Assembly (NCBI RefSeq): GCF_008274585.1
Contig: NZ_VTRT01000006.1
Span: 124,001 to 188,000, forward strand
Direction of reading: 5' to 3'
Origin: Pedobacter sp. BS3
Lineage (GTDB): Bacteria > Bacteroidota > Bacteroidia > Sphingobacteriales > Sphingobacteriaceae
Length of the DNA: 64,000 nucleotides
This document shows, piece by piece, positions 5,160 to 64,000 of this stretch (position 1 is its first letter; each line of letters begins with the position of its first letter). Position numbers and translations under genes: made by a program. A model generated the notes under the pieces. The model was not told the DNA's origin. It worked only from the letters and a program-made list of their open reading frames with translations, and made no database searches.

Positions 5160-5258
5160 CTCAAAAAGTAATGTTTTGCCATTAAGGTGTTAAGGCACGA
5201 AAAGATAAAGCAGTAAAAAAGGCTATAACCTTGTGCCTTTGAAACTTTGTGGCATATC
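5160..5258. repeat. Degenerate heptameric (period-7) spacer
   Basis: The gap between the convergent serB-like and histidine kinase genes reads in 7-bp steps, for example ATTAAGG TGTTAAG followed further on by CTTGTGC CTTTGAA and ACTTTGT. It belongs to the heptamer family seen in many spacers here. No terminator hairpin with a T run is obvious. Confidence 0.45.
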
Positions 5259-7899: not shown

Positions 7900-8612
7900 T
7901 GAACTGCCTGCTGGTTGACGATGAAAAGCTTGCTTTAGACCTGATGGAAGATAACATCAGTCAGGTGCCGTTTCTTACCCTGAAAGGCAAATGCAAAAAC
8001 GCGATGGAAGCGATGGAGTTTCTGCGCCAGCATTCCATAGATCTGTTATTCCTGGATATACAAATGCCTGGCTTATCAGGTTTACAATTTCTAAGCGCCC
8101 TGTCCAATCCTCCGTTGGTTATTATGGTAACCGCTTATGATAAATACGCTTTAGACGGCTTTAATCTCGATGTGGTTGATTACCTGGTAAAACCCGTACC
8201 TTTTGCCCGCTTTTTAAAGGCTATAGACAAAGCGTACGAGCTCTTTACCCTGCGGCAAAAAGGCATTAGCACCAGCCTGGCCGCCCAGGACCATATTTTT
8301 GTTAATGCCGATTATTCCATTGTACGCATTAACCTGTCGGATGTTGTTTATATCGAAGGTTTGAAAGATTATATTAAAATATACCTGCTTAACCAGCCCA
8401 AACCGGTTATTACCCGGCTGAGTATGCGCTATATGGAAGAAAAGCTGCCTCCGGCCCGGTTTTTGCGCACCCATAAATCCTATATTATTGCGCTGGATAA
8501 GCTCATCGCGTTTAAGCGGAACCGGGTTACGCTGCCCAATGCAGAAATTCCGGTTAGCGATAATTATAAAGATGAATTACTAACGTATATTAGTCAACAT
8601 AATTCGATATGA
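7896..8612 (+). CDS. LytTR-family response regulator
   Basis: DNA-binding response regulator of 238 residues, partner of the LytS-like kinase it overlaps by 4 bp. The receiver domain (1-120) has the acidic pair in LLVDDE, the phospho-acceptor aspartate in [13 protein letters not shown], the threonine in MVTAYD and the lysine in YLVKP. The C-terminal LytTR domain (about 130-235) includes [13 protein letters not shown] and [10 protein letters not shown]. The following exported protein starts inside its stop codon (ATGA at 8609), so at least three genes form one operon. Confidence 0.95.
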
Positions 8613-9418
8613 TGAGATTAAAAAATATTTTGTTTACGCTTTCGCTGATAAGTGTTCATCTGGTTACACAGGCCCAGAAAAAGAATGAGGTGATAGAAAA
8701 CAGCGTAGCGCCGCAGCAGGTAAAAATTGACGGCAAGCTGAACGAGTGGGGCGACTCGCTGAAAAATTACAATGCGACAGCCAAGCTTTCGTACGTAATT
8801 GCCAACGACGATAACAAACTATACCTTGCCGTACGCTCGTCAGACAAACAAACCATCTCAAAAATAATGGTTGGCGGCATTGATTTTACCGTAAACACAT
8901 CCGGCAAGAAAAAGGAAGGGCCAACCGTTACCTTTCCGGTAATTAACCGGCAAGGTATGCGGCAGCAGGGTGGCAAACCCAACAGACAGCAGTTTGATAC
9001 AACCGAAATGCGCCAGAAAATGCTTTCGCAGATAAAAGAGATCAAGGTAAACCACTTTAAAAGTATCGTTGATGGCAGTATTTCCATTTACAACGATTAT
9101 GGCATCAGCGCAGCCGTGGCCTACGATGCATCCGGAGGCCTGGTTTATGAGCTGGCCATTCCTTTACAACAGTTAGACCTTTCAGCTACTGATAATAAGG
9201 TGCTGGCCTATAATATCAAAATAAACGGACTTCAGCTTCCGCAGATGCCCTCTGAAGGTAACCGCGAAAGCGGCGGCTATCCAATGGGTGGCGGAATGTA
9301 TGGCGGTGGCATGTATGGTGGCGGCGGTATGGGGCGATATAACGGCAGCGCTATGGACCGCAACCCGATGTTCCAGTCCACAGATTTTTGGATAAAGGCA
9401 ACACTGGTGAAGAAGTGA
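8609..9418 (+). CDS. Exported protein of unknown function, DOMON/CBM9-like, Gly/Met-rich C-terminus
   Basis: I do not recognise a named family with certainty. The 269 residues begin with a signal peptide (1-22, ending VTQAQ). A segment starting [11 protein letters not shown] and continuing [14 protein letters not shown] resembles the CBM9/DOMON-like beta-sandwich found in Bacteroidota surface proteins. Near residues 225-250 lies a Gly/Met/Tyr-rich repeat ([16 protein letters not shown]). It overlaps the LytTR regulator by 4 bp and is followed by an outer-membrane barrel gene whose own C-terminus is also Gly/Met-rich, suggesting a common surface complex or metal-related role (inference). Confidence 0.8.
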
Positions 9419-9480: not shown

Positions 9481-12411
9481 ATGAAAAATATCAAGGCAAT
9501 AATTAAAAGTGCAGGACTCACGTCTCATATCTCATATCTAAAATCTCCATTACTTGCAGCAACATTATTCCTGTTAGCAGCACTGGTAAAAACAGAATCT
9601 GTTAAAGCACAGACAGGCCGCGAAGTGAGCGGCGTTGTACGCGATACTGCCGGAAACAGCGTTATCTCGGCAAGTGTAAAACTGGTTTCGGCTAAAGATT
9701 CGCTGTTTGCCCGCACCAATGCCGATGGCGTTTTTGTTTTCCGAAATGTACAGTCATCACAATTTGTGATAACCATTACCAGCCTGGGCTACCGTACCAT
9801 TAATAAACGTTTTCTGTACAACGAAGGTACAGACCGCCTGGTGTTAGACCCGTTTGTGATGCAAATGCAATCAAACATGCTGCAAACCGTAGTCGTATCG
9901 GGTAATACGCCGGTCACCATTAAAGAAGATACCGTTGAATACCGGGCAAGCGATTACAAGCTGCGGGAGGATGCCGTTACCGAAGACCTGCTTAAAAAAC
10001 TCCCGGGAGTTGATGTAGACAAAGACGGTAACGTGACGGCTCAGGGAAAATCGGTTACCAAGGTACGGGTAAACGGCAAAGATTTTTTTGGCGGAGATGT
10101 GCGCACCGCGACACAGCAATTACCTGCCGATATTATCGATAAAATCCAGATCATTGATGACTACGGTGACCAGGCTAACATTACCGGTATTAAAAACGGC
10201 GACCCGGACAAAGTGCTGAACATCCAGATACGAAGAGATAAAAACAAAGGAACCTTTGGCCGTGCTAATGCCGGGGTTGGCGATAACGACCGGTATCAGG
10301 CTTCGCTGAGCGCTAATATATTTAATAATGAACAGCAGATTTCATTCCTGGGCAATGTGAACAATACCAATATATCGCTTTTTAACTTTGGCGGAGGCAG
10401 TTCAAGAGGAGGAGGACGAAGTAGTGGCGGCTTTAGCGGTGGAAGCAGCGGAGGGTCACGACGCAGCGGGGGGCTCCGTTCTTTTGGCAGCTCATCCAGC
10501 TTAGGCAACGGACTGGCACAAACGTCTACCGGGGACGGGCTGACCTCGCTGGCATCTGTTGGTTTAAACTACCGCGATGAATGGGGAAAGAAACTATCCT
10601 CATACGGAAGCTACAGTTATTCATACAAAGACAACAGTCTGCTCGAAAACCAGATACAACGCTATACCTCGGCCAGCGGTATTGACACTACTAACTCGGC
10701 CAACAACACCCGTGGTTTCACCACCAATCACCGCTTTAGCTGGAACTTAGAATATAAACCCGACAGCGTGAATTACATTAAGTTCTCTCCATCATTCAGT
10801 TATTCAGGAACCAACAATAACGTGATATCCAATTCGCGGATAAACAGTTACGACCCACAATCAAATTATAGTAATGATAATACCAGCAAAAGCCTGGTTA
10901 AAAACCCCAACTTCGGTGCAAACCTGTTGCTGAACCACCGGTTTAAAAAACCACGCCGCAACATCTCGCTGATGTTAAATGCCAATACCAATAATAACGA
11001 TGAAAACGATAATGTACTGAACATCCTCAACCTACAAACACCAGTTCCTAAAGATTCTATACAGCATCAGTTGCAGGATATTACCAACAACAGTTTTAAC
11101 GGTGGGGCAAACCTGTCGTACAGCGAACCGCTGGGCAAAAGCGGCAACCTGGAGTTTAATTACAATTACAACTATACCAAGTATAATAACGACAGGGAAA
11201 CTACCGGTCTTGACCCTATTGGCGCTGCCTCACGCATAGACAGCCTGAGCAACGATTACGATTACTCGTTCACCACGCACCGTATCGGGCTAAATTATCG
11301 TTTTAACGAGCGCCGTTATAATTATTCAATTGGTTTAAGCGTACAGCCAACGGTATTATCGGCACACTCCGTAACATCAAACGGAACAACAACCTATCGT
11401 AATACGGGATTTAATTATATCCCGGTGGCACGGTTCTCGTATAATTTTTCGCGTACACGCTCATTCAACGTCAGCTATTATGGCCGGAATACCGAACCAA
11501 CCTATATCCAGCTTCAACCTACGCCTGATTTTACCAATCCCAATGCCCCGATATACGGTAATCCGGACCTGAACGCAGAATTTAACCAAACGCTGAACAT
11601 CCGTTATAATAATTTCGATGTCAAAGCGGGGAATGTGCTGTTTACCAACCTGTCTGTATCAACCACATCCGATAAAATAGTGCAGAACATTGTGCACAGC
11701 AAAGACCCGAACACCAATACGCTTATCCAGGAAACCCATTACCTCAATGCCGACGGATATTACACCGTTAACGGCTTTTATGTATGGTCTATGCCTTTCC
11801 AGGAGAAAAAATACGTGCTTACCTTTAACGGAAATGCCAACTATAACAACAACATCGCATATAGCGATAATTTAAAGAACATTGGACATAACTGGATATT
11901 GATGCAGGGCGTACGCCTGCAAATTAATCCTACCGATTGGCTGGAAGTTTATCCCGGCGCATCGTACACCTACAACAGTAATACCTATACCGATGCTAAT
12001 TCTACAGATACCCGTGTGAGCACCTGGGCATTAAATTACAGCAGTAAAACCTATTTCCTGAAAAGCTGGCTGGTAGGTTTGGATATGAGCAAATCCATTA
12101 ACCGCGGTTACAGCTCACTATCTGCCAATCCGTTTATCATGAACGCTTACCTTGAAAAGCAGTTCTTTAAAGGAAAAACCGGTGCTTTGCGACTGCAGGG
12201 ATTTGACTTGTTTAACGAAAATACCAATATATCACGTACGGTTGACGGAAATATCACTACCGATACACAAAGCAACCGCTTAGGCCGATATTTTATGCTG
12301 AGCTTTACGTACAGATTCCAGAAATTTAACGGTAAAAATGGCGAAATGCCGCCACAGCAAGATCCCGGAGGTTATCGCGGCAGAGGTATGATGCGCATGC
12401 CGAGAGGATAG
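9481..12411 (+). CDS. TonB-dependent-receptor-like outer membrane beta-barrel protein (OMP_b-brl_3 family)
   Basis: Outer-membrane protein of 976 residues. It has an unusually long leader (about 45 residues, ending SVKAQ), a carboxypeptidase-D regulatory-like domain (about 48-125, GVVRDTAGNSVISASV), a plug-like region (about 150-260, with LLKKLPGVDVDKDGNVTAQG and VRVNGKDFFGGD), a Gly/Ser-rich linker near 300-345, and a long barrel region rich in NNN and aromatic strand patterns that ends in MSFTYRFQK-like text followed by a Gly/Met/Arg-rich tail (GRGMMRMPRG). Lies downstream of the LytSR-type pair and the exported protein in the same direction. Four heptamers are embedded in the leader, and 3' coding sequence plus stop is duplicated downstream. 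Confidence 0.92.
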   Translation: MKNIKAIIKSAGLTSHISYLKSPLLAATLFLLAALVKTESVKAQTGREVSGVVRDTAGNSVISASVKLVSAKDSLFARTNADGVFVFRNVQSSQFVITITSLGYRTINKRFLYNEGTDRLVLDPFVMQMQSNMLQTVVVSGNTPVTIKEDTVEYRASDYKLREDAVTEDLLKKLPGVDVDKDGNVTAQGKSVTKVRVNGKDFFGGDVRTATQQLPADIIDKIQIIDDYGDQANITGIKNGDPDKVLNIQIRRDKNKGTFGRANAGVGDNDRYQASLSANIFNNEQQISFLGNVNNTNISLFNFGGGSSRGGGRSSGGFSGGSSGGSRRSGGLRSFGSSSSLGNGLAQTSTGDGLTSLASVGLNYRDEWGKKLSSYGSYSYSYKDNSLLENQIQRYTSASGIDTTNSANNTRGFTTNHRFSWNLEYKPDSVNYIKFSPSFSYSGTNNNVISNSRINSYDPQSNYSNDNTSKSLVKNPNFGANLLLNHRFKKPRRNISLMLNANTNNNDENDNVLNILNLQTPVPKDSIQHQLQDITNNSFNGGANLSYSEPLGKSGNLEFNYNYNYTKYNNDRETTGLDPIGAASRIDSLSNDYDYSFTTHRIGLNYRFNERRYNYSIGLSVQPTVLSAHSVTSNGTTTYRNTGFNYIPVARFSYNFSRTRSFNVSYYGRNTEPTYIQLQPTPDFTNPNAPIYGNPDLNAEFNQTLNIRYNNFDVKAGNVLFTNLSVSTTSDKIVQNIVHSKDPNTNTLIQETHYLNADGYYTVNGFYVWSMPFQEKKYVLTFNGNANYNNNIAYSDNLKNIGHNWILMQGVRLQINPTDWLEVYPGASYTYNSNTYTDANSTDTRVSTWALNYSSKTYFLKSWLVGLDMSKSINRGYSSLSANPFIMNAYLEKQFFKGKTGALRLQGFDLFNENTNISRTVDGNITTDTQSNRLGRYFMLSFTYRFQKFNGKNGEMPPQQDPGGYRGRGMMRMPRG
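9523..9550 (+). repeat. Heptamer tract inside the receptor leader peptide
   Basis: Units TCTCATA, TCTCATA, TCTAAAA and TCTCCAT run in frame through codons about 15-24 (SHISYLKSP) of the receptor gene. The same words form the heptamer array at 20870-20904. Loss or gain of one 7-bp unit would shift the frame unless translation starts downstream. Confidence 0.75.
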
Positions 12412-12473
12412 ATCTTTAGTAACAGGAGTACGATTGAGCGAAGATCCGGCTTCATTCAGCTACTTTTAAGCCT
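12313..12473 (+). repeat. Direct repeat copy 1 (161 bp), 3' end of receptor gene plus stop and downstream DNA
   Basis: Matches 12545-12705 with only a few substitutions, offset 232 bp. This copy contains the last 33 codons of the receptor gene, its TAG stop and about 60 bp of following sequence. Confidence 0.93.
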
Positions 12474-12481
12474 TCTCAGCC

Positions 12482-12537
12482 AAGCTTCGTGTCTTCACGA
12501 AGCTTCTCTTATGCCGGTTCGTGAGGACACGAGCCGG
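12482..12537. repeat. Two adjacent hairpins of the GTG-TCYY-CAC family
   Basis: First hairpin 12482-12505: arms AAGCTTCGTG and CACGAAGCTT, loop TCTT, perfect 10-bp stem. Second hairpin 12514-12537: arms CCGGTTCGTG and CACGAGCCGG around AGGA, with one T:G position; read on the other strand its core is GTGTCCTCAC. They lie between the two copies of the 161-bp direct repeat and may also act as a terminator for the receptor operon, although no T run follows. Confidence 0.75.
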
Positions 12538-12544
12538 GGCTTTG

Positions 12545-12705
12545 AGATTCCAGAAATTTAACGGTAAAAATGGCGAAATGCCGCCACAGCAAGATTCCGG
12601 AGGTTATCGCGGCAGAGGTATGATGCGCATGCCGAGAGGATAGATCTTTAGAAACAGGAGTACGATTGAGCGAAGCTCCGGCTTCATTCAGCTACTTTTA
12701 AGCCT
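12545..12705 (+). repeat. Direct repeat copy 2 (161 bp), silent duplicate of receptor 3' end
   Basis: Duplicate of 12313-12473 lying outside the coding region. It still encodes the same C-terminal residues and stop but has no upstream frame. From here to 12962 I see only AT-rich spacer and the promoter region of the next gene. Confidence 0.93.
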
Positions 12706-16360: not shown

Positions 16361-16490
16361 AGAAACAAGAACATAGAAGCAAGAGACAAGATAGGTAGAA
16401 GGCTATCTACAAACAAGAACATAGAAGCAAGAGACAAGACAAGGAGCAGAAACTAAGCTCCCTCCCTTTGGGAGGGTTGGGGTGGGCTTT
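16361..16490. repeat. Composite repeat: heptamer tract plus GGGAGGG-type element
   Basis: Heptamers such as AGAAACA, AGAACAT, AGAAGCA and AGAGACA run from 16361. A 29-bp word at 16363-16391 recurs exactly at 16411-16439. The tract leads into a palindrome-bearing element (CTCCCTCCCTTTGGGAGGG, then TTGGGGTGGGCTT) ending near 16490. The right part, about 16411-16490, recurs collinearly in inverse orientation at 60392-60468. The fill of the 16315-16640 spacer is therefore repeat DNA. Confidence 0.85.
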
Positions 16491-16494
16491 CTGC

Positions 16495-16543
16495 TTGCGC
16501 TCGTTTGCAACGAATGCATAATTACCCGGCGTTTATAACGTCG
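16495..16543. repeat. Truncated copy of the four-hairpin element (two hairpins left)
   Basis: TGCGCTCGTTTGCAACGAA and CGGCGTTTATAACGTCG correspond to the first two hairpins of the complete element at 18603-18746. It lies in the untranslated region before gcvT. Confidence 0.75.
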
Positions 16544-19740: not shown

Positions 19741-19826
19741 TTCATTAATATTAAGTTTAGTATAAAAAGAGGTGTATAATGTTATATCTATGTTGTTAAT
19801 ATTGAATCGATTATCCGCTTCTTCTT

Positions 19827-19854
19827 TTTTACTTTTTACTTTTTACTTTTTACT
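19827..19854. repeat. Four perfect heptamers TTTTACT between cysH and cysD
   Basis: TTTTACT repeated four times exactly, ending 8 bp before the cysD ATG at 19863. The remaining spacer is AT-rich. The tract lies where a ribosome binding site would be. Confidence 0.9.
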
Positions 19855-19862
19855 TAAAATAT

Positions 19863-20771: not shown

Positions 20772-20912
20772 TTTCAGACAAGAGATTTTAGATGTAAGAT
20801 TTTAGACATCTGATGTTAAATATAAAATAATAGCCAGGATATTGAGAAGAGAGCGGGACCGATAAAGTCTCATATCTCATATCTCATATCTCATATCTCA
20901 TATCTAAAGAAC
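20772..20912. repeat. Heptamer array between cysD and cysN
   Basis: From about 20781 the spacer reads in 7-bp units such as TTAGATG, TAAGATT and TTAGACA, and ends in five perfect copies of TCATATC (20870-20904). It fills the whole intercistronic gap. No terminator or promoter is evident. Confidence 0.88.
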
Positions 20913-22157: not shown

Positions 22158-22375
22158 CCGATAATCTTAGAGCCTGTTACCCTGCCAACATGGAGAAAAG
22201 CTTCGAATAATAGAGTATGGAAGCCGCCCAACCGTAGAGCGTGATTCTTAACATTATTCTTTGTATTTTTGATAAAACCTTACACCGGGTAGTGCTTCCG
22301 TTTTGCAAGCAGGTGCAAACAGAGCTTCCTTTTGCTTTTTAGCCGTTCACCTTAAACCTTCGGCCTTTTACCTTG
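22158..22375. repeat. Convergent spacer with AGAGCCTGT half-element and short heptamer tract
   Basis: AGAGCCTGT at 22169-22177 is the arm of the inverted repeat seen at 41406-41445. Four heptamers (ACCTTAA, ACCTTCG, GCCTTTT, ACCTTGC) cover 22349-22376 up to the DUF763 stop codon. No gene seen. Confidence 0.6.
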
Positions 22376-23587
22376 CTAATATTTAGCAAACAAATTTAGC
22401 TGAGCGCCTGCAGGGGGCTTGGCCCGGCCGAAAACCGTACGACCGCCATATCGCCATGATTCGCGATGCTCTTTTTCAATTACCTGCTCAAAATTCTGGT
22501 TAGGAGTAAAATCCTTTTCAGCCTGACGGGCTATTTCGGATATTTTTTTAATGGCCTGCTGTTTTTCACCCTGCCCGATCTTTGCCTGGTAAACTGCCTT
22601 TTGCAGCACAGATATCGTTTCATCGTATGTTTTAACGGGAACCGGAAAAGGATGGCCATCCTTACCGCCATGTGCAAACGAAAACCGGGCCGGATCTTTA
22701 AACCGGCTGGGAGCGCCATAAATTACCTCGCTTACCAGTGCCAGCGATTGCATGGTTCGCGGCCCCAACCCTTCAAGTAAAAGCAAGTCTTCAAAATCCT
22801 TTGGCGATCTCTCGTGCGCTAACCACAATACAGAACCCAATCGTTTTAAATCAACATCCTTGGCACGTACATCATGATGCGCCGGCAAAACCATTTTTTG
22901 CACTTCGGCTAACATTTGCTGAGGCGCTTCACGCGAGATGCTCATTACGGCATCGCGGGCCTGCAGCGCTTTATCAGAAGCCATATTCAGGATATTGCCC
23001 TGGTTCTGTCCGTAAATAAAGCTATGCGGATTATTAACAAATGAGCTTATTCCCGGCGAATGCCAGTGATAACGCCTTGCAGTAGAGTTACCCGTGCGCA
23101 TGCCCTGCTGCACAACAGCCCATTGTCCGCTGTGGCTCACAATAAAATTATGCGTATAAAGCTGGAAACCATCCTGTACCGCCGTATTATCAACCTTTGC
23201 GCTTAGCTTGCTGCATCTTACCAGGTAATTTCCGTCAAGGCCGGTGCGGTTTGCAACCGAAAGCAGCTCATGGGGCGCTTGTCGCGAAAATTTCCCCTTA
23301 CCCCCGCAAATGTAAAGTCCTAAATCTTTAGAATATGGGTTCACCGCCCGTTTAAGAGCGCCCATAACAGAAGTGGTAATGCCCGAAGAATGCCAGTCCA
23401 TACCCATAACCGCCCCAAAGCTCTGAAACCAGAACGGATCGCTGATCCGCGATAAAAAACCATCCTGGCCAAATTCCATAATAATGGACTCTGTAATAGC
23501 CAGGCCTAATTTGGCCATACGTTCTGCCAGCCATTTAGGCACATATCCGTAATGTAAAGGTAGATCTGCCGAACCCGCACGTTTCAT
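22376..23587 (-). CDS. DUF763 domain-containing protein
   Basis: Conserved uncharacterised protein of 403 residues found in bacteria and archaea. The N-terminal half has the family text MKRAGSADLPLHYGYVPKWL, GMDWHSSGITTSVMGALKRA and GLYICGGKGKFSRQ. A short segment near residue 275 (LLLLEGLGPRTMQSLALVSE) looks like a helix-hairpin-helix DNA-contact motif, so a nucleic-acid role is plausible but unproved. Stands alone on the minus strand, convergent with cysN and divergent from gcvP. Its 3' end touches a heptamer tract. Confidence 0.93.
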   Translation of the reverse strand: MKRAGSADLPLHYGYVPKWLAERMAKLGLAITESIIMEFGQDGFLSRISDPFWFQSFGAVMGMDWHSSGITTSVMGALKRAVNPYSKDLGLYICGGKGKFSRQAPHELLSVANRTGLDGNYLVRCSKLSAKVDNTAVQDGFQLYTHNFIVSHSGQWAVVQQGMRTGNSTARRYHWHSPGISSFVNNPHSFIYGQNQGNILNMASDKALQARDAVMSISREAPQQMLAEVQKMVLPAHHDVRAKDVDLKRLGSVLWLAHERSPKDFEDLLLLEGLGPRTMQSLALVSEVIYGAPSRFKDPARFSFAHGGKDGHPFPVPVKTYDETISVLQKAVYQAKIGQGEKQQAIKKISEIARQAEKDFTPNQNFEQVIEKEHRESWRYGGRTVFGRAKPPAGAQLNLFAKY

Positions 23588-23689: not shown

Positions 23690-23870
23690 GTATGTTAGTT
23701 TGTTAGTTGTTCGTCTCTCGTCATTCGCCTTAAACCTTCTACCTTAAACCTTCTACCTTCCACCTTTCTACCTTTCTTGTCTCTTGCATCTATGCTCTTG
23801 TTTCTATGATAGCCTTCCACCTTTCTGCCAAAACTGCTAACTACTAAACAACTAATAATCAATTGTTATT
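23690..23870. repeat. Long degenerate heptamer array between DUF763 and gcvP
   Basis: The spacer can be read in uninterrupted 7-bp steps: TTAGTTT GTTAGTT early, then TTAAACC TTCTACC twice, then TTCCACC. It includes TCTTGTCTCTTGC (23775-23787) and CTCTTGTTTCT (23795-23805), the inverse of the tract at 16361. It fills most of the 342-bp spacer. Confidence 0.85.
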
Positions 23871-41510: not shown

Positions 41511-43970
41511 ATGAAAAATGTTATTACGCTCTTTGCGCTGATCTTTGTAGCCGTTACTGCACCTGCACAGGATCGCTGGCTTCGCGGTACGGTTACCGAT
41601 AGCCTGGGCAATCCGTTACCGTTTGGTTCCATTTACATCAATAATACCAGTCGTGGCACATCGGCCAACGAAAAAGGTTTTTACCAGCTTAAGCTCAATA
41701 CATCGGCTAACCAGGTTGTGTTTAAGTTTATAGGATATAACCCGGTTCTGGTTACCATTCCTCCCGGTAAAGCCGATACCAGCGTTCATGTACAACTTAG
41801 CCAGACGGTTTACCAGCTTGATCATGTAACCGTTACAGGTAAAAAATCAAATACCGCCAACCGGATCATGCGTATGGTTATCGATAACCGTATCAGGCAT
41901 TTAGAAGAGATTAGGAACTATGTAGCCGACGTATATATTAAGGGTATGCAAAAATTAACCCGGGCGCCCAAAAGGTTTCTCGGGCAGGATGTTACCCACG
42001 TGCTTCAGCTGGATTCTAACGGGCACGGTATCATTTATCTTTCAGAATCAGAATCAAAGCTCCATTTCCAGGCGCCCAATAATTATCGCGAAGTAATGCT
42101 GGCCAGCCGGGTTTCAGGCAAAAATTCATCGTTCAGCTTTCATAAGGCCGAAGACCTGATGGTTAATTTTTACCAGAACCTGATACAGTTTGACAGTCTG
42201 GCCATACGGGGATTTATTTCGCCGCTGGCTGATTATGCGTTTGCTTATTACCGGTATAAGCTCCTGGGGCAAATTACCGAAAACGGCGAAACTATCAGCA
42301 AAATTGCGGTTATTCCCCGCAGGGCGCATGACCCGGTTTTCAGAGGAGAAATTTATATTGCCGAACATGACTGGCGTTTATATGCCGTTAACCTGTACCT
42401 TACAAAAAAAAATAACATTAACCTGGCAGATACCATACGGTTCAGTCAGCAATATTTACCCGCGAGCGATAATATTTGGATGCCATCCTCGCTGCAATTG
42501 AGTTTTAAGGGAAAAGTTTTAGGCTTTTCATACGAAGGTTATTTTGTAGGAATATTTAACAATTATAAAATAAACGAGCCACAGCCCGGAACAAAATTCA
42601 GCGGCGAAATTTTAAAGATAAGTAAAAATGCCATTAAGAAAAGCGAATCGTACTGGGAAGACAAACGCCCCATACCCTTAACAAAAGAAGAGATCCGCGA
42701 TTATCGCCAAAAAGACAGCATTGAGCATATACGTACGCTGCCGCGTTATCGCGATTCTATTATGGACGTTGAAAACCGTCTGACCCTGGCCAAGGCCGCA
42801 TTGTTTGGCTATACCTGGAAAAATACATTAACAGGTCGCTCGTTGAGGTTTGCGCCGGTATTACCTTCGCTATTTTACAATACGGTTGAAGGTTTCGGCT
42901 TCCAGTACGATGTACGGTTTAAAAAAGAATACAACCTGAAAAATTCCATAGAAGTTACACCACAATTGCGGTATGGCTTCTCAAACAAGCACCTCAATCC
43001 GCTGGTTGAGGGAAGGTATTATTACGATCCCGTTAACAAAGGTTTTTTAAGTCTGCGGGCGGGTTCCGAAGTGCTTGATCTCACTAATCTCCGCTCATCA
43101 ACCAGCGTAACCAACTCGCTGAATACGCTGATATATGAAACCAACTGGCGCAAATTCTACGAGCAGTCGTTGCTTAGCTTTAGTGCCAGCTATGAAACCA
43201 ATCCCGGCCTTTTCTTAATGGGTGGCCTTGAATATAGCCGTCGCCGGTGGCTGAATAATACCTCCAATTTCCGGCTTATTGACCATCCCGGTAAATCTTT
43301 TACATCAAACAACCCGTTTTATCCCGACGATAATACTATTCCGTTGTTTGCCAATCATACGGCTTTCATCTTTTCGGCCGAGCTGGATTATGCCCCGGCA
43401 GCCCGATATATTACCCGCCCCGAAGGGCGCTTTTATGAGCCGTTTAAATATCCCCGGTTCCTGGTAAACTATAAAAAAGGCATCAACGATTTGTTTAACT
43501 CTGATGTGGGTTTTGATTTTGCCTCGCTGGAAGTTTACCAGAATGATTTAAAGCTGGGTTTATTGGGCCGGGCCTCATACACGTTTAAGACCGGTAAATT
43601 TTTTAATGCGGCAAGCATTTATTACCCGGATTATTACCATTATCGCGGTAATAACTCGCTGATCTTTGAAAGCAGCCTGCGTAATTTCCATTACCTGGAT
43701 ATTTATCGTTTTAGTACCAGGGGACAGTTTTTTGAGGCTCACTACGAGCAAAATTTCGGCGGCTTTATCACAAATAAATTACCCCTGATACGCAGGTTGA
43801 AGCTGGAGGAGATTGTGGGTGGGGCCTACCTTGACCAGTCATCGCAAAAAAATTATGCGGAAGTTTTCTTCGGCTTGCAACGTTTGATATTCCGGGTTGA
43901 CTATGCCGTTGCATTCAGCTACGGTGTGAAAGTTTACCATGGCTTTAAACTATCGTACAGGTTGAAGTAA
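41511..43970 (+). CDS. DUF5686 and carboxypeptidase regulatory-like domain outer membrane protein
   Basis: Outer-membrane protein of 819 residues from ATG 41511 (GTG 41505 would add two). Signal peptide 1-20 (ending APAQ), then a carboxypeptidase-D-like domain (about 23-105: GTVTDSLGNPLPFGSIYINN, then VTVTGKKSNTANRIM), then the long DUF5686 region and a C-terminal beta-barrel ending HGFKLSYRLK. DUF5686 proteins are widespread in Bacteroidota with no settled function. A single transcription unit. Its last codons and stop are duplicated downstream at 44110-44139. Confidence 0.93.
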   Translation: MKNVITLFALIFVAVTAPAQDRWLRGTVTDSLGNPLPFGSIYINNTSRGTSANEKGFYQLKLNTSANQVVFKFIGYNPVLVTIPPGKADTSVHVQLSQTVYQLDHVTVTGKKSNTANRIMRMVIDNRIRHLEEIRNYVADVYIKGMQKLTRAPKRFLGQDVTHVLQLDSNGHGIIYLSESESKLHFQAPNNYREVMLASRVSGKNSSFSFHKAEDLMVNFYQNLIQFDSLAIRGFISPLADYAFAYYRYKLLGQITENGETISKIAVIPRRAHDPVFRGEIYIAEHDWRLYAVNLYLTKKNNINLADTIRFSQQYLPASDNIWMPSSLQLSFKGKVLGFSYEGYFVGIFNNYKINEPQPGTKFSGEILKISKNAIKKSESYWEDKRPIPLTKEEIRDYRQKDSIEHIRTLPRYRDSIMDVENRLTLAKAALFGYTWKNTLTGRSLRFAPVLPSLFYNTVEGFGFQYDVRFKKEYNLKNSIEVTPQLRYGFSNKHLNPLVEGRYYYDPVNKGFLSLRAGSEVLDLTNLRSSTSVTNSLNTLIYETNWRKFYEQSLLSFSASYETNPGLFLMGGLEYSRRRWLNNTSNFRLIDHPGKSFTSNNPFYPDDNTIPLFANHTAFIFSAELDYAPAARYITRPEGRFYEPFKYPRFLVNYKKGINDLFNSDVGFDFASLEVYQNDLKLGLLGRASYTFKTGKFFNAASIYYPDYYHYRGNNSLIFESSLRNFHYLDIYRFSTRGQFFEAHYEQNFGGFITNKLPLIRRLKLEEIVGGAYLDQSSQKNYAEVFFGLQRLIFRVDYAVAFSYGVKVYHGFKLSYRLK

Positions 43971-44139
43971 CAGATGGTAGAAGGTTTAATTAATAATTGA
44001 CAATGGAGAGATGACAGTTGACAATGGAGAGATGACAGTTGACAATGGAGAGATGACAGTTGACAATGGAGAGATGACAGTTGACAATGGAGAGATGACA
44101 GTTGACAAGGGTTGAAGTAATAGATGGTAGAAGGTTTAA
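43960..44139. repeat. 21-bp tandem repeat flanked by a 30-bp direct repeat
   Basis: Unit TTGACAATGGAGAGATGACA plus G is repeated five times perfectly (starts 43997, 44018, 44039, 44060, 44081) with a partial sixth at 44102-44108. The flanks 43960-43989 and 44110-44139 are the same 30-bp sequence (one mismatch) and contain the end of the DUF5686 gene (GTTGAAGTAA). The 21-bp unit equals three heptamers, and the flanks also read in 7-bp steps. Confidence 0.95.
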
Positions 44140-44159
44140 GGCGTAAGGTAGGAGGCTGA

Positions 44160-44629
44160 GTAAAACGAAATCCCGGTCATTCGTATTGGTGTCAGGTTAA
44201 GAAAAGATACGCTATTTCTTGTTTTTATTCTGCCGGTATTTAGAGCCTGTTTAAAAATGAAAATTTAAGTTATATGGAGCTGTTGGTGGGGACACCAGCA
44301 GCGGCAGGAAGCCGGGGTTGACCAAAAAGTCAAAAAGCAGCGCCATTTCGATCCCTCCCGTACATGCCGCATAGGCGTCAAGTTAATTTTATGAAATGTT
44401 AATAATTGGCTGTAAATCAATCAATTGTTCAAAAAGCACAGACAGAGCTAAAAAGCCCGGAACCCCGTCACCCTGAACCTGATTTCACCCCGAAACTTCG
44501 GGATTAAAACGGCGCTTATGCTGCTATTTAGGAGATTCCGGATCCCCCGAGCACTCGGGGTGGACGGCAGGGGCTTTTTAGACACCCCGGCAGGAAGCCA
44601 TGGACGGTGTCTTCACCGTCCATTAATTA
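44160..44629. repeat. Spacer packed with dispersed hairpin repeats
   Basis: No gene seen. Contents in order: AGAGCCTGT half-element (44242-44250); GTG-TCYY-CAC family hairpin GCTGTTGGTG-GGGA-CACCAGCAGC (44279-44302); the inverse of the 2657-2684 element (about 44309-44337); paired CCCGGAACCCCGTCACCCTG and related text; and a perfect hairpin ATGGACGGTG-TCTT-CACCGTCCAT (44600-44623). Confidence 0.75.
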
Positions 44630-44668
44630 AAGCCTGTGAAATCTTTATATGAAATTCAAACAGGCTCT
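44630..44668. repeat. AGAGCCTGT inverted-repeat element, copy 2
   Basis: Same internal text as copy 1 (ATCTTTATATGAAATT) with three or four substitutions. The ATG within this element (44649) opens an apparent start for the DUF2683-like frame. Confidence 0.7.
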
Positions 44669-44690
44669 TAGTGAAATTTATTTTATTTGT

Positions 44691-44921
44691 GTGGACTTTC
44701 TGATTGTTTACCCGGAAAACAAAACCCAATTGAAAGCAATAAAGGCTGTAATGAAAGCCGTGAATATTACTTTTGAACAAAATCCTGAATATGTGGAACA
44801 AGATGTAAAAGAGTCACTACATCAGGCCGAAAACGGCCAATTGATACCATATACCGGTATAAAAAGATATGATAGAGCCGGCTATCAATCTAACATCTCA
44901 TATCTAACATCTAACATCTAA
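44691..44921 (+). CDS. DUF2683-like small protein (possible antitoxin)
   Basis: Small protein of 76 residues if started at GTG 44691 (VDFLIVYPENKTQLKAIKAV, then MKAVNITFEQNPEYVEQD). This text resembles DUF2683/antitoxin-like proteins that start MDTLIVHPEN-like. The ATG at 44649 would add 14 residues encoded by the inverted-repeat element and is less likely. The last 12 residues (YQSNISYLTSNI) are encoded by a heptamer tract. No toxin gene is visible next to it. It may be a decaying orphan antitoxin. Confidence 0.6.
   Translation: MDFLIVYPENKTQLKAIKAVMKAVNITFEQNPEYVEQDVKESLHQAENGQLIPYTGIKRYDRAGYQSNISYLTSNI
44890..44920 (+). repeat. Heptamer tract at the 3' end of the DUF2683-like gene
   Basis: CTAACAT, CTCATAT, CTAACAT, CTAACAT then CTAAAAA. 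The tract supplies the last codons and the stop of the gene. Confidence 0.8.
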
Positions 44922-46708: not shown

Positions 46709-46835
46709 AATTCTGGTATTGAGTACTGGGTATTGAGTATTGCGAGAAGCCTATGCTCCTATCTTGTCTCTTGCTTCTACGTTCTTGTTTCTAAATTGCC
46801 TTCTACCTTACGCCTTAAAACCTTCTACCTCTTTA
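46709..46835. repeat. Heptamer array between LiaF-like and LytS-like genes
   Basis: Reads ATTGAGT ACTGGGT, then ATTGAGT ATTGCGA, and onward to TCTACCT words, in 7-bp steps across the whole gap. Positions 46761-46792 are the inverse of 16361-16394 with one or two mismatches. Confidence 0.88.
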
Positions 46836-51469: not shown

Positions 51470-52735
51470 CTATGTATCTATGTGGTTTTTAACCGAACTC
51501 AGATTCTTACAAATGTATCCTACAATCGCACTTGTTGCGCCGGTATTTCGCTGCACATAATTTTTGGCAGTTTCACTGGCTTGTACTCTTAGCGAATCAT
51601 CCTGTAAACGTTGCATCACCGCTTTTAATCCGTTAAACGTGTCAATACTAAAGGCGGCCTGTAGCGTTATCAGTTCCCTGGCTTCGCGGAAACGCTGGTA
51701 ATTAGGGCCGAAGATGACCGGCAAACCAAAAGCTGCCGCTTCGAGCGTATTGTGGATGCCTACGCCGAATCCGCCACCAATGTACGCGATGTTTCCATAT
51801 TGATACAGTGATGAGAGCATGCCGATGTTATCGATGATTAAGATTTGAGATTTGAGATTTGAGATTTGAGATGTTGCTATAGCTGAATAGCGGACAAAGC
51901 TGTTTTCGGGCAATAACTTGCAAAGGGCAGTGATCCGGCTTTCGCCGATTTCATGCGGAACGATAATAAATTTCCAGTCCGGGTATTCAACAACCAGTTC
52001 AGCGAGCAGCTTTTCATCCTCAGGCCAGGTACTGCCGGCAATAAAAACCTGGTGATTGTTTGAAAATTGTTCCGCTACGGCAATAGCTTTAGGATGTACC
52101 GCGTTTTCTGCCACACGGTCAAAACGGGTATCGCCGCTAACGGTAACATGCCTTATGCCGATGGTTTGCAGGAGCTCCTTGCTGGCTTCATCCTGCACAA
52201 AAATATGACTGATGAAGTCCAGCATCTTCCTGTTTAGCGTGCCGTACCATTTAAAAAAAGGCTGCTGTTTACGGAATATCGCCGAAATGACATACAGGGG
52301 AACCTGTTTTTCATGTAATTCGTTGAAATAGTGATACCAGTAATCGTACTTGGTGAAAATAGCCATTTCAGGCTGGACGAGCCGGATAAATTCACGGGCA
52401 TTGCGCCGCGTATCAACCGGAAGGTAAAAAACGTGATCGGCCAGCGGCGTATTTTTACGTATCTCATATCCCGACGGCGAAAAAAAGGTGATCACGATCT
52501 TCTTCCCCGGATAATTTTTTCGCAGCGCTTCCAGCACCGGCCGGCCTTGTTCAAATTCCCCCAACGAGGGAAAATGAAACCAGATACGGGAGTCGCCGGT
52601 ATCCAGTACATCAGCAATGTGCTCAAGCAAATGCCGGCGCCCGTTTACCCACAATTTTATCTTTTTATTAAAGAGCGCTAAAATTCGGGCTACAAGAAAA
52701 TAAAGGTAAATTCCGGCATCGTAAAGAAACAGCAT
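51470..52735 (-). CDS. waaA: 3-deoxy-D-manno-octulosonic acid transferase (Kdo transferase)
   Basis: Adds Kdo to lipid A precursor at the inner membrane; normally essential for LPS. The 421 residues have an N-terminal membrane anchor (LYDAGIYLYFLVARILALF), FHFPSLGEFEQGRPVLEALR, KKIVITFFSPSGYEIRKN, AIFTKYDYWYHYFNELH, FIAGSTWPEDEKLL and YIGGGFGVGIHNTLEAAAFG with PVIFGPNYQRF. Residues about 289-300 (TSQISNLKSQI) are encoded by a heptamer tract. Single gene; ugd is divergent. Confidence 0.96.
   Translation of the reverse strand: MLFLYDAGIYLYFLVARILALFNKKIKLWVNGRRHLLEHIADVLDTGDSRIWFHFPSLGEFEQGRPVLEALRKNYPGKKIVITFFSPSGYEIRKNTPLADHVFYLPVDTRRNAREFIRLVQPEMAIFTKYDYWYHYFNELHEKQVPLYVISAIFRKQQPFFKWYGTLNRKMLDFISHIFVQDEASKELLQTIGIRHVTVSGDTRFDRVAENAVHPKAIAVAEQFSNNHQVFIAGSTWPEDEKLLAELVVEYPDWKFIIVPHEIGESRITALCKLLPENSFVRYSAIATSQISNLKSQILIIDNIGMLSSLYQYGNIAYIGGGFGVGIHNTLEAAAFGLPVIFGPNYQRFREARELITLQAAFSIDTFNGLKAVMQRLQDDSLRVQASETAKNYVQRNTGATSAIVGYICKNLSSVKNHIDT
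51841..51868 (-). repeat. In-frame heptamer tract inside the Kdo transferase gene
   Basis: On the given strand AGATTTG three times, then AGATGTT. Read in the gene it encodes QISNLKSQ-like residues between two conserved blocks. One unit is 7 bp, so a change in copy number would shift the frame. Confidence 0.8.
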
Positions 52736-60378: not shown

Positions 60379-60700
60379 GATTACTAAGTTTAGCCCACCC
60401 CAGCCCTCCCTAAGGGAGGGAGCTTGGTTTCTACTCCTTATTTTGCTTCTTGCATTTATGTTCTTGTTGGCCTCATCCCAACCCTCTTGATCTGGTATTG
60501 GGTATTGAGTAGTGCGTATTGAGCCTTGCGCCTTAAACCTTCTGCCTTCCATCTTTTTTGTTTCTTTGTTCTTTCCTCTCTTCCCGACTCTCGGACTTTC
60601 CCGACTTCCGGACTATATGCCATAAACTATGAACCATAAGCCTCTAAAACCTAAAACGTATAACCTTCTACCTTCTACCTTCCAGCCTTCCACCTTTTCA
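60379..60700. repeat. Composite repeat and long heptamer array between the TPR-CHAT and propeller-like genes
   Basis: 60392-60468 is the inverse of 16411-16490 (GGGAGGG-type element plus heptamers). From about 60492 the DNA reads in 7-bp steps (CTGGTAT TGGGTAT, TGAGTAG TGCGTAT, then TAAACCT TCTGCCT, and on to TCTACCT TCTACCT) for some 30 units up to the TPR-CHAT stop. No gene seen. Confidence 0.88.
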
Positions 60701-63589
60701 TCACATTCCGTAAAGCACGTATGGCGCCCAGAAATTAAAGTGCCTGAATTGTTGCCCGAAATCGCCGCGGATAAACCTGCGCTTCATGATCGAGGCTGCT
60801 TCTTCGTAGCTTTTCCCCTCTTTGGTTGTCATGGTGTAAAGCCCGGTCATATAGTACATCGTTCCCTCGTCGGACACGGGCCATAACGATACCAGCGCCC
60901 GGTTAGCACCCGCAGTAAGCAGCGAGCCGGTTAAACCGGATACACCTTCACCGCCATAAATCTTACCCAGGGCTGTTTCGCAGGCAGAAAGCACCGCGAT
61001 ATCGGCCTGCATGTGCAACCCGGAAATTTCAGGTGCGGTAAGATAGCCGTCTTCATTGCCCTGCATCTGGTTGAAAATACACATGGCAACGCCGGATAAT
61101 TCCGGGATTTCGGGAACGGCAAAACCATGTGTTGCCAGGTGGATGACCTTGTAGTTTTTTAGCTGTCCCGTTGCCGACATCTGCTTAATGCGATTCTCGG
61201 TCATGTCGGCCCCGAAGAACACATCCCTGTCCTGGAAAATATTGCTCAGATTTTTTACTTCCTGTAGCGTTCCGGCCAGGTAATTCATCTTTTTAGAGCC
61301 GAAAAGCGCCGCGTAGATTTCCCGTTGCGGTTTGTTGTTGAACAGGTTCTGCTCGGCAATTTCCTGCAGGTTCACCAGTTGCTCCTGGCCGCGAAGCGGC
61401 TGGGCCTGCTCAGACATATCCTGGTATATGGCGCCGCCCATGCCTAAAAATGATTTGCGTGAAGCGGGGTAAACGCGTTCATGAACAGTATTAAACACAT
61501 CGGCCGACTGGCAATACCTGATATCAAAATTCTCAATCAGGAAGTGGTTATCGGGCGCCAGAAGCGCTTCGTAAGGAAGAAAATTTAAAATGCCGCTGGG
61601 CGAAATAATGAGCTTGCTTTTCCCGGTTATTCTGGATAACACCGGCGAAATCAGCGTTCTATAATAGCTGGCCAGTAAATCGGCAGTAACCGAAGCTGGT
61701 ATCTGGCCCTGAACATCCTGTAAACATTCGCGGGTGAGCTGCATGATCTCATCCATGTCGTTTCGCGAAATCATCTGGGAAACATCCTTCGTCTGGTATT
61801 TTATGCCACTCTGCTCAATAATACCCGTAGCCGGTTTATAGCCTGAGGCCTTGCCATCTGCCTGGTGTATGCGGTCTAAATATTTTTTCTTTACATCAAC
61901 CCAGTGCTGAAAATCTTCTATATACACCGGCGTTGCGCTCTCTTTGGTTACTACGTTAATAATGAAGGCTCCGGCCTCCATCTGGCTGTAAAACAAGGCG
62001 GCTTCATCCGCTTTAAGCTTTGCCTGAAACTTTTCAAGCGTTACCGGCGATGACAGTCTTTTCTTCAGGGTTTCGCCCAGCACCCGTGCCCGGTCTTTAT
62101 TCTGAATATCAAAAACCGCTTTGCCATTGCCCAGCCGGGCATACGAGGCTACCAGCAGCTCAAAAGCGCTTACGTGCTGCTGGAAGTAAAGAATTTTTTC
62201 ACGACCCTTGAGCGTGCTGCGCAACTGCTCGGTAATATCTGCCGCCTTTTGTAATAAGGGAATTGCTGCCGCGAAATTTTTATCTTGATAATACAAAGCT
62301 CCGGCATTATTGTACGAGCTTTCTGCCAGGCCCAGATCTCCTTTGGCCCTCGCTTTTTCTGCCGCTTCAACGTACAATTGTTTGGCTTTCTCTTTGTCGC
62401 CCTGTTGCCATAATGAAATAGCTGTATTGGGGGTAAACTCATCGTATAAAGCATCCAGGTTATTCAGTTTGGCCGTGTTTAATGCCTGCTGAAAATAAAA
62501 AGCCGCTTTTTTACGGTCGACGGGAATGGGCGATGCCACATACGCTATACCCAGAAAATTGCTGGCATTTGCCTGGTACCAGGCATCGCTTGTAGTATTC
62601 TGAACCTTGCTAAGCGTTTCGGCAATAACTTTAAGGCTTTGCAGGGCGGTGGGGTCAGACTGCTGCACCCCGTTCATGAGTGTGGCGTAGTAGTACAAAA
62701 AATTCGCTTTCTCATTACCATAATTAATGGCTGCGGGAACCAGCTTCCAATAAGCATTGCCAAAAGAAACGCCTTTTTCATAGTCGTTAACCCGCTGATA
62801 GTGCGAAAGCACAATAGCTGCCGCAGATAGCTGGGCAGTAGCCATAATTTTGCCGGGGTAGCTTTTAGCCATATCCAGCGACTGCATGGCGTAAGGAAAA
62901 TCGTAATCGTTGGCTGCATTAAAAAAGTTTTGCGCTGCCACAAAGGCCACTGTCGATCTCAGAAACTGAAATTCGGCAGGAACCTGGGCAAATAAACCGA
63001 GCGCCTTGTCAAAAGCGGATTTGGCCGGCGTATATTTTTTCGCGTTGATTTGCTGTACAGCCTCGTTAATAAGAGCGTTGATTTGTATGAATGTTTTGTT
63101 TCTTGCCGGATGCGCCGTTTTAACATACGTAAGCACTTCGTTGAAAACCGCCGGGTTTACATGATGCGCTATAATATCATTCAGGTCTTTCTCAACAGCC
63201 GGCAGGTTGTTGCCATCCGGGTCGAGCCATAAAGCCAGATTCAGGAACCCAAGCCCTTCGCTTTTTCTGTTCTGGGCATACAGCACATACGCTTTTATAA
63301 TGGTAGCACCTATATCCATCTGGTATAACTGGTAAGCGTTATCAGCATAGGCCGATGCCTGCGTTAAATCGTTTTTCAGCAGGTAGATCCAGGAAATTTG
63401 AACGTGCACACCGCTATATCCGGGCGCCTCTTTCAGCAAGGCCTGAAATTTGGGAAGCGCCTCGTCTGGTTTACCGGCATTGCTCAGTTGCCAGGCCTCC
63501 TGAAACCGGGCATTAAAATCCTGCGAGTAACCTGCTAATGGCGCAAGTATTGCAACAAGCAGCAGTATGAAGATGCGTTTTTTTACCAT
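60701..63589 (-). CDS. Exported TPR-CHAT peptidase-like protein
   Basis: Large protein of 962 residues with a signal peptide (1-22, ending AGYSQ), about ten TPR-like helical repeats (25-500, for example NAGKPDEALPKFQALLKEAP, NLDALYDEFTPNTAISLWQQ and SSYNNAGALYYQDKNFAAAI), and a C-terminal caspase-like CHAT domain (about 640-962). The catalytic pair looks intact: His821 in HLATHGFAV and Cys870 in LSACETALGKIYGGEGVSGL. It is expected to work outside the cytosol. It leads a minus-strand group with the propeller-like and small exported proteins, although a 322-bp repeat spacer separates it from them. Confidence 0.93.
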   Translation of the reverse strand: MVKKRIFILLLVAILAPLAGYSQDFNARFQEAWQLSNAGKPDEALPKFQALLKEAPGYSGVHVQISWIYLLKNDLTQASAYADNAYQLYQMDIGATIIKAYVLYAQNRKSEGLGFLNLALWLDPDGNNLPAVEKDLNDIIAHHVNPAVFNEVLTYVKTAHPARNKTFIQINALINEAVQQINAKKYTPAKSAFDKALGLFAQVPAEFQFLRSTVAFVAAQNFFNAANDYDFPYAMQSLDMAKSYPGKIMATAQLSAAAIVLSHYQRVNDYEKGVSFGNAYWKLVPAAINYGNEKANFLYYYATLMNGVQQSDPTALQSLKVIAETLSKVQNTTSDAWYQANASNFLGIAYVASPIPVDRKKAAFYFQQALNTAKLNNLDALYDEFTPNTAISLWQQGDKEKAKQLYVEAAEKARAKGDLGLAESSYNNAGALYYQDKNFAAAIPLLQKAADITEQLRSTLKGREKILYFQQHVSAFELLVASYARLGNGKAVFDIQNKDRARVLGETLKKRLSSPVTLEKFQAKLKADEAALFYSQMEAGAFIINVVTKESATPVYIEDFQHWVDVKKKYLDRIHQADGKASGYKPATGIIEQSGIKYQTKDVSQMISRNDMDEIMQLTRECLQDVQGQIPASVTADLLASYYRTLISPVLSRITGKSKLIISPSGILNFLPYEALLAPDNHFLIENFDIRYCQSADVFNTVHERVYPASRKSFLGMGGAIYQDMSEQAQPLRGQEQLVNLQEIAEQNLFNNKPQREIYAALFGSKKMNYLAGTLQEVKNLSNIFQDRDVFFGADMTENRIKQMSATGQLKNYKVIHLATHGFAVPEIPELSGVAMCIFNQMQGNEDGYLTAPEISGLHMQADIAVLSACETALGKIYGGEGVSGLTGSLLTAGANRALVSLWPVSDEGTMYYMTGLYTMTTKEGKSYEEAASIMKRRFIRGDFGQQFRHFNFWAPYVLYGM

Positions 63590-64000
63590 CGTATTGAGAG
63601 ACGTGTGTTAACAGAGGTAAAGATATTCTGATAGATCAGGCGTCTGCAATACCGGGAAATACGTAGATGATGTATTTAGATAAAAGATATTAGATGAAAT
63701 CAGCTTTACTGCCCTGAATGAGAAAAGAGTGGATTTTCACTTTGCTGGTAGCTAAACCTCACGGGGTTTCTGAAACTTGTCAGGCTTGCAAGTTTAACAG
63801 CACTGTCCTGACTTAGCTAAACCCGGTTGCAGCGAATACCGGCCTTGTGGCTAATGCCCTGCGAGGTATCGGGGCGGGCCTGTGCAGTATAAGCGGAAGA
63901 CGGGACTATCCTGTGCTGATGCAATACTGTCTTTGCTTTTCAAACTAAAAAACAATCAGTAAAAAGACATTGTAAAATAAATCGCAAACTGTATTGTGAT
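63590..64000. other. Spacer at window end, upstream of the TPR-CHAT gene
   Basis: No convincing gene. Contains a short heptamer stretch (ATTTAGA TAAAAGA TATTAGA near 63672-63695) and GC-richer text from 63760 (CTCACGGGGTTTCTGAAACT, CTTGTCAGGCTTGCAAG) of unknown origin. It probably holds the promoter for the TPR-CHAT gene, but no clear TAnnTTTG was identified. Confidence 0.4.

Follow-up and report, generated by a model that had tools for sequence, protein, structure and literature searches.

Polar arrays of degenerate seven-base words lie in many intergenic spacers of Pedobacter sp. BS3, where period seven and its multiples dominate. The analysis concerns a window of 64,000 nucleotides of this genome (contig NZ_VTRT01000006.1, positions 124,001 to 188,000), in which an initial annotation had listed heptamer arrays at 60492-60705 and eleven other places, and a genome sample of 864 kb (G000, hereafter the BS3 sample) composed of the window itself and 400 kb each of contigs 12 and 21. 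Gene calls come from a simple finder based on hexamers, which leaves some spacer borders approximate.

Spacer segments scoring at least 10 at lag 7 number 152 in the BS3 sample, against 6.6 in shuffled sequence (5.2 with other dinucleotide shuffles), and are spread over 127 of 538 spacers. Lag 14 gives 118 segments against 4.8, while lags 4-6 and 9-13 give 8-16 against 3.4-8.0, a small excess at some of them. The claim that a 7-bp step is kept through divergence, beyond ordinary microsatellite noise, is borne out by these counts, with 39 segments at lag 8. That lag shows a smaller excess of its own (4.6 when shuffled), which suggests unit-length drift or mixed steps of seven and eight. Autocorrelation of the same spacers, taken relative to the median lag, reaches z of about 22 at lag 7, 14 at lag 14, 12.5 at lag 21 and 4 at lag 28; lags 1, 3, 6, 8 and 9 are raised too (z 49, 8, 8, 10 and 7). 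Coding DNA shows no rise at lag 7 (z -2.8), and the period-7 excess over shuffled and coding controls that had been proposed as a check is thus present in the spacers. The coding DNA (about 0.69 Mb) is not wholly free of such segments, with 13 at lag 7 against 4-8 at lags 5, 8, 10 and 14.

Within the window, a tandem-repeat finder returns many period-7 rows in spacers, and the 36 spacers (8574 bp) give z of 8.2 at lag 7, 5.5 at lag 14 and 7.4 at lag 21, compared with 4.5 at lag 8, 1.8 at lag 6, -0.8 at lag 5 and 0.8 at lag 10. Each listed place was tested against 1000 dinucleotide shuffles, with the best lag chosen among 4-14. At 60492-60705 lag 7 is the best lag, with 116 of 207 positions matching (P=0.001). 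Total lag-7 matches are also significant (P<=0.006) at nine of the other eleven places, namely 9417, 16361, 19827, 20781, 22349, 23690, 43970, 44890 and 46709, although the best single segment of 16361-16450 taken alone gives P=0.10. The list therefore holds for the main locus and these nine places; it is marginal at 63672-63695 (P=0.05) and fails at 5163-5257, where period 7 is unsupported (P=0.21, best lag 8).

Polarity, words and ordered modules

Most arrays have one strand with more G than C, here called the G strand, and this strand mostly has the same direction relative to the nearest gene edge. When arrays of the BS3 sample are cut into 28-base pieces, which are not independent of each other, the left third of the spacers holds 73 G-type, 2 C-type and 13 unclear pieces, and the right third 43 C-type, 11 G-type and 16 unclear. 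The pattern is found in tandem and convergent spacers and is weaker in divergent ones. Spacers of 80 CysN loci show it as well (left third 22 G and 5 C, right third 27 C and 5 G). Mixed spacers carry a single G-to-C switch in 15 of 16 cases in the BS3 sample, 5 of 5 in genome G013 and 11 of 11 in the CysN loci.

Counting whole arrays leads to the same geometry. Among the 66 of 117 BS3 arrays that score at least 12, have a clear G strand and lie within 40 nt of a gene edge, the G-richer strand runs 5' to 3' inward from that edge in 36 of 41 near stops and 20 of 25 near starts. Of 96 arrays, 74 have their nearest open reading frame (ORF) 5' of the G strand and 19 have it 3', with 3 ties; the median distance is 13 nt on the 5' side against 136 nt on the 3' side. 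Arrays nearer the 5' ORF outnumber those nearer the 3' ORF by 9 to 2 in G013 and by 11 to 2 in 20 further stretches from array-bearing genomes. Array ends are over-represented at gene edges, with 64 within 10 nt of a gene where 30 are expected under random placement (117 arrays). The frequency of arrays is similar in the three types of spacer: they occur in 70 of 373 tandem, 18 of 81 convergent and 15 of 84 divergent spacers.

Codon selection was considered as a source of this polarity and is insufficient to explain it. Upstream of starts there is no avoidance of start codons (4.30 per 100 nt in sense against 3.62 in antisense), and stop codons after stops are only somewhat commoner in sense (8.5 against 5.9 per 100 nt). 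No transition bias is found between units (605 transitions, 693 transversions). In the literature searched, part of it in excerpt, no statement of inward polarity for Bacteroidota heptamer words was found beyond consistent single cases in MacGregor 2015 (PMC4679880).

The arrays and associated elements of the window are as follows.

60386-60480, minus strand: GCCCACCCC...CCCTCCC-GGGAGGG hairpin with a degenerate copy of the CTTGTCTCTTGCTTC module (8/30 mismatches), belonging to the 60492-60705 mosaic
60492-60705: mosaic spacer of GTATTGR words (G strand plus), then G strand minus words in the order CCTTNNA, CTTGTTT/GACTTTC-type, ACTATGA/ACCATAA, CTAAAAC, CCTTNNA; reaches to within 4 nt of the 60701-63589 gene's stop codon
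9417-9458, plus strand: AAGTNAA-type array running into the spacer from the stop of 8609-9418
16361-16450, plus strand: two copies of the five-word module AGAAACA AGAACAT AGAAGCA AGAGACA AG, then the GGGAGGG hairpin
19819-19855, minus strand (also the G strand): TTTTTAC x4 array, 7 nt upstream of the cysD-like start at 19863
20781-20829, plus strand: left array of AGATTTT/AGATGTA words, downstream of the cysD-like stop
20868-20905, minus strand: right array, TCTCATA x5.4, 7 nt upstream of the cysN-like start at 20913
22349-22376, minus strand: CCTTAAA CCTTCGG CCTTTTA words adjoining the stop of 22376-23587 (minus)
23690-23870: TTGTTAG/TTCGTTG-type words (G strand plus), then CCTTNNA and CTTGTTT module words (G strand minus)
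43970-44160, plus strand: 21-mer TTGACAATGGAGAGATGACAG x5.3 (three heptamers) and GAAGGT words, running inward from the stop codon at 43970; in strict terms the repeat unit is a 21-mer (3 x 7), present 5.3 times
44888-44921, minus strand: ATCTAAC/ATCTCAT array overlapping the 3' end of the 44649-44921 ORF (DUF2683 Pfam match)
46709-46835: GTATTGR words (G strand plus), module CTTGTCTCTTGCTTCTACGTTCTTG, and CCTTNNA words at the 46833 gene's stop
51838-51872, plus strand: intragenic AGATTTG-type array inside the WaaA-like gene 51470-52735 (minus)

About 12 word families, grouped by eye and labelled for this analysis, recur in the BS3 sample: AAGTNAA, ACAATGG/ACAGTTG, ATCTCAT/ATCTAAC, GTATTGR, CCTTNNA, YRGCYAA, ACTATGA/ACCATAA, TTGTTAG/TTCGTTG, AATCGTA, ACGTAAA/ACTTATA, GTTATGT and CTTGTTT. 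A single common degenerate word was rejected, as only a weak RGTNNNN trend appeared and reversed-pattern counts were sizeable in some genomes. The words also bear on the quadruplexes proposed for the heptamers of Xanthomonas and Nostoc, which share the period, intergenic location and polarity in the excerpted text of Rehm 2015 (PMC4692102). A quadruplex pattern of G3 or longer runs occurs in none of the 117 BS3 arrays, and one of G2 or longer runs in 24 of them. Quadruplexes therefore cannot be the general cause, and the probability that they explain the BS3 arrays is negligible.

Words are joined into modules that recur in order. In the 864 kb, the five-word module starts at 13 sites at <=7/30 mismatches, spread over 11 spacers and counting the query at 16361 (reversed control 1); at <=8/30 mismatches there are 17 (reversed control 2). 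Its copies several times adjoin the GC-rich hairpin GCTCCCTCCC-GGGAGGG...GGGGTGGGC, a dispersed element found at 16440-16500 and 60386-60420, all six of whose GGGAGGG matches in the 864 kb fall in spacers, each beside heptamer words. A second ordered module joins ACGTAAA-, GACTTTC- and ACTATGA-type words. BLAST finds 556 array-spacer pairs with at least 30 nt in common, a count inflated by simple shared words. The main locus, 60386-60705, is itself a mosaic, with 116 and 119 nt common to two other spacers at 74-75% identity. These recurring modules and the shared stretches of the mosaic indicate that copying between loci probably contributes, beyond independent slippage.

The side-by-side recurrence of modules and the non-periodic hairpin would also be expected of a mobile, dispersed element (a MITE or small repeat) with a heptameric body, whose insertion preference would produce the edge position and polarity. 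However, module combinations vary, many loci hold one word only, and two module spacers had no match in 72,556 plasmid records. Taken with the distribution of Y1 transposases given below, these points make a mobile element unlikely.

Some arrays reach into genes. The 44649-44921 ORF was omitted by the gene finder despite its Pfam match; because the array at 44888-44921 overlaps its end, its C-terminal tail would be array-encoded. The WaaA-like (KDO transferase) gene matches Pfam PF04413 and is a relative of PDB 2xci, and its array encodes SQISNLKSQI in a loop that is variable among 19 relatives and not unusual in length. Four arrays scoring at least 15 lie inside called genes of the BS3 sample; the three others are 6 nt from a gene's 3' end, at 9512-9546 near a possibly misplaced start, and in mid-gene at 272120 of the joined C21 sample. 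Rfam 15 has no match at gathering score within the window. Separately, the long spacer at 12412-12700 contains the stretch ATCTTTAGTAACAGGAGTACGATTGAGCGAAG... twice with small changes, unrelated to period 7.

Distribution among genomes and the spacer before cysN

The 616 spacers (<=600 nt) of the 80 CysN loci, mainly from Bacteroidota, give 62 segments at lag 7 against 4 in one shuffle, compared with 5 against 9 at lag 5, 4 against 7 at lag 10 and 21 against 10 at lag 8. The 20 further stretches give 16 against 0. At the same time, 41 of the 80 loci have no lag-7 array at a score of at least 10, and the same-genus genome G001 (400 kb sampled) has 3 segments against 1.8 shuffled, in 3 of 206 spacers. 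With G001 nearly array-free and the BS3 sample rich, the array trait is patchy. The expectation that the excess would repeat across related genomes thus holds for the CysN loci and for G013 (17 against 2.4 in 200 kb), and fails almost completely in G001. Other samples of 200 kb give 5 against 0.8 (G007), 4 against 1.0 (G016) and 2 against 0.2 (G012). G007 has few arrays in its sampled stretch apart from one very long CTTGAAC/GTTGAAC-type array in a single spacer (contig 1 near 1235938, locus L212; lag-7 score 194).

Individual words are patchy too. Three tandem CCTTNNA units have 34 overlapping matches in the BS3 sample and none in G001, and occur in 15 of 60 genomes; the reversed control matches in 9 of 60, none of them the BS3 sample. 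For AAGTNAA x3 there are 114 matches in the BS3 sample (control 1) and again none in G001, with presence in 12 of 60 genomes, although the control exceeds the real matches in G051 (8 against 6). The 18-base word array TTAGTTGTTAGTTGTTAG is found in 9 of 296 Bacteroidota genomes (reversed control 4), four of the nine being among 17 genomes sampled from one genus.

The spacer before cysN is a recurrent site. Among named genomes, the ten nearest CysN proteins (75-82% identity) belong to Desertivirga, Arcticibacter, Pedobacter, Hufsiella, and metagenome-assembled genomes of Sphingobacteriaceae and Sphingobacteriales. Many Bacteroidota loci have a pair of arrays upstream of cysN, with words that change by taxon, predicted to fold as a single hairpin from the stop towards the start. 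In the window, the right array at 20868-20905 is predicted to pair with the left array at 20781-20829 (spacer folding z -1.97). The spacer before the nearby cysD-like start (19863) measures 122 nt here and 16 nt in G001. For the folding test all 80 loci were entered and 59 were usable (a 30-250 nt spacer after an upstream ORF, whose cysD identity was not confirmed in each). Spacers with a lag-7 array (score at least 8; n=30) have a median folding z of -2.60, with 19 below -2 and an outermost pair spanning more than 0.6 of the spacer in 22. Those without (n=29) have a median of -0.49, with 5 below -2 and 9 with a wide outermost pair (P 1e-4). A set of 47 loci chosen by hand from the 80 had given a similar outcome.

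These results raise the possibility that the arrays are selected RNA or DNA elements, either multi-site binding platforms for a protein each of whose subunits covers seven bases, or translation-coupling intercistronic hairpins, with selection keeping lexicon and polarity. The folding of the cysN spacers supports this, as does that of the spacers of the 80 loci overall (median z -1.94 in 41 with arrays, -1.11 in a random part of 124 without; P 0.026) and the higher identity of the cysN arrays than of third codon positions described below. In addition, the excerpted text of MacGregor 2015 (PMC4679880) says that direct repeats of heptamers can be bound by CspB, with one protein on each heptamer. 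However, BS3 spacers of 60-260 nt fold no better with arrays (median z -0.66, n=43) than without (-0.81, n=68, a random part), and the G and C arms of one spacer match no better than arms across spacers (mean rank 0.49, 18 spacers). Hairpins are therefore one form of the arrays and not their general cause, and are retained as an explanation for the spacer before cysN only. The near-equal frequency of arrays in tandem, convergent and divergent spacers, their near absence from G001 and the lack of start-codon avoidance before starts also speak against selected elements, which we consider possible yet somewhat unlikely as a general account.

One orthologous spacer pair shows a change by whole units. 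The cysN spacers of L101 and L110 differ by 14 nt, or two units, in the left array, and a word is altered in several units between L148 and L150. Array spacers thus do not evolve by point substitution alone, the outcome named beforehand as counting against an expansion mechanism. Automatic ortholog pairing, which mostly aligned unrelated spacers, gave gaps in multiples of seven in 24 of 369 cases in arrays and 148 of 2005 outside; the BS3 sample and G001 share 32 reciprocal best hits with only six conserved neighbour pairs.

Possible origins of the arrays

Our preferred reading, which we hold tentatively, is that polar intergenic heptamer arrays result from tandem duplication in steps of seven together with copying between spacers. 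Arrays would grow and shrink through duplication, by slippage or unequal exchange, and existing array DNA copied into other spacers would seed new arrays, giving each genome a shared lexicon. They would be tolerated wherever no gene is disrupted. In a short operon spacer, as before cysN, an inverted pair may persist as a single hairpin in which the stop and start codons come to lie close together, and the sequence of such spacers is probably under selection. As a guess, the polarity would be explained most simply if the G-richer strand were the newly made one, extended from a gene-side 3' end into the spacer. The specific expansion mechanism suggested at the outset (slippage with a seven-base step, or a bound protein or polymerase) is supported in that the step of seven stands out; slippage alone is insufficient because of the polarity relative to gene edges and the multi-word modules found in order at several loci.

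Several results weigh against duplication and copying as the whole account. In convergent spacers of G013 the left third holds 5 G-type and 5 C-type pieces, and in divergent spacers the G strand points inward in only 3 of 5 arrays within 40 nt of a start, a 3:2 split. Identity along the G strand has no 5' to 3' gradient (0.79, 0.72 and 0.78 by thirds; 61 arrays), so directional or simple terminal growth is not seen. In eight chosen cysN pairs, some with members in common, aligned array columns are 0.70-0.97 identical against 0.49-0.78 for cysN third codon positions. Every pair has its higher value in the arrays; the difference exceeds 0.2 in four pairs (for example 0.95 against 0.49 and 0.97 against 0.67) and is as little as 0.02 in one (0.76 against 0.74). 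In three pairs, conservation is higher still in the few spacer columns outside the arrays. The higher identity of the arrays suggests selection rather than neutral turnover at the spacer before cysN. Finally, the search for co-occurring repair or polymerase genes, proposed with the initial annotation, identified no enzyme: none of Ku, RVT_1, Y1 transposases and SbcD explains the presence or absence of arrays.

The gene-content tests covered 49 of the 80 CysN genomes and ten genomes of the G series. Of the 39 CysN genomes that have an array at a score of at least 10, 22 were included, and of the 41 others 27. Array class was set by one 5-21 kb locus per genome, counts ignore kinship, and some genomes classed as array-free (L079, L086, L092, L104) have weaker arrays. 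Y1 transposases, relevant to a mobile element, were found in 18 of the 22 genomes with arrays and 15 of the 27 without (Fisher P 0.07), and in the BS3 sample and G001 alike. The hairpin nuclease SbcD is above cut-off in 7 of 22 and 17 of 27, respectively, a trend at Fisher P 0.045 with kinship ignored, and in at least 2 of the 9 TTAGTTGTTAGTTGTTAG genomes (three counted as without), compared with 93 of all 296. Insertions from Ku-pathway end joining, or reverse transcriptase products, would be attractive in that 3' ends extended from either side of a break would leave one strand pointing inward. However, 6 of the 22 genomes with arrays and 13 of the 27 without have Ku, as do the BS3 sample and G001, and RVT_1 reverse transcriptases have no match in either of the latter two. 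Neither is required, and such an origin is very improbable.

Comparison with known heptamer systems

The heptanucleotide repeats of cyanobacteria go by the name STRR. They are likewise tandem repeats of seven bases, and the likeness drawn here is one of unit length. A survey of 2007, reportedly by Mrazek, dealt with heptamer excess. As described where it is cited in the excerpted text of Rehm 2015 (PMC4692102), which also mentions heptanucleotides of Calothrix, it reported an excess of heptamers among bacterial simple repeats; the excess of unit length seven in the BS3 spacers is likened to it through that description only.

According to the same excerpt, the GGGAATC/GGGGAYT heptamers of Xanthomonas and Nostoc are intergenic and of the same polarity, quadruplexes are proposed for them, and heptamers are linked, in an idea cited there, to slippage on a DNA segment of polymerase size. 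The BS3 arrays resemble them as degenerate tandem heptamers, mostly in spacers and with convergent pairs. The ORF is nearer on the 5' side of the G strand in both, on average 28 against 160 nt in Xanthomonas and Nostoc and in the median 13 against 136 nt here. Polarity is likewise independent of gene orientation here (74/96), if weak in divergent spacers. Unlike the single G-run word type with quadruplex potential in Xanthomonas and Nostoc, there are about a dozen words here, partly in composite modules, and the BS3 sample contains no tandem pair of GGGAATC or GGGGAYT.

Five Bacteroidetes carry direct repeats of TAACTGA and of other heptamers according to the excerpted text of MacGregor 2015 (PMC4679880), and TAACTGA repeats occur in Beggiatoaceae and Cyanobacteria as well. 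The view that heptamer arrays had no named Bacteroidota counterpart is therefore not borne out, and the slippage idea was already cited in Rehm 2015. The TAACTGA repeats are likewise intergenic heptamers lying shortly before start codons, reversed directly after the stop in one set, with other heptamers in the same spacers and with relatives whose spacers are shorter and repeat-free, as here (MacGregor 2015, PMC4679880). Their fixed orientation near start codons is matched by the 20 of 25 BS3 arrays of the same polarity. Unlike that system, the BS3, G001 and G013 samples contain no TAACTGA tandem pairs.

Thus, heptamer arrays with inward polarity were already known for other words in other bacteria, to the extent that the excerpted sources describe them. 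New here are the many words without G3+ quadruplex patterns, the composite modules, and the word-changing hairpins before cysN across Bacteroidota. A bolder proposal, which we rate as quite unlikely, is that all these repeats form one cross-phylum class defined by geometry rather than by word or quadruplex. Synthesis in steps of seven bases would extend 3' ends on the gene side with G-richer words, proceeding from both flanks into the spacer, like telomere-like addition at healed breaks, with gene edges as a barrier set by selection. The heptamer excess in bacteria has so far been a curiosity, tied to quadruplexes for G-rich words. With the same geometry now seen in words without G3 runs, the question becomes what it is that advances seven bases at a time and which of the two strands it lengthens. 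A same-genus pair that is array-rich and nearly array-free in the sampled stretches makes this testable by comparative genomics and experiment.

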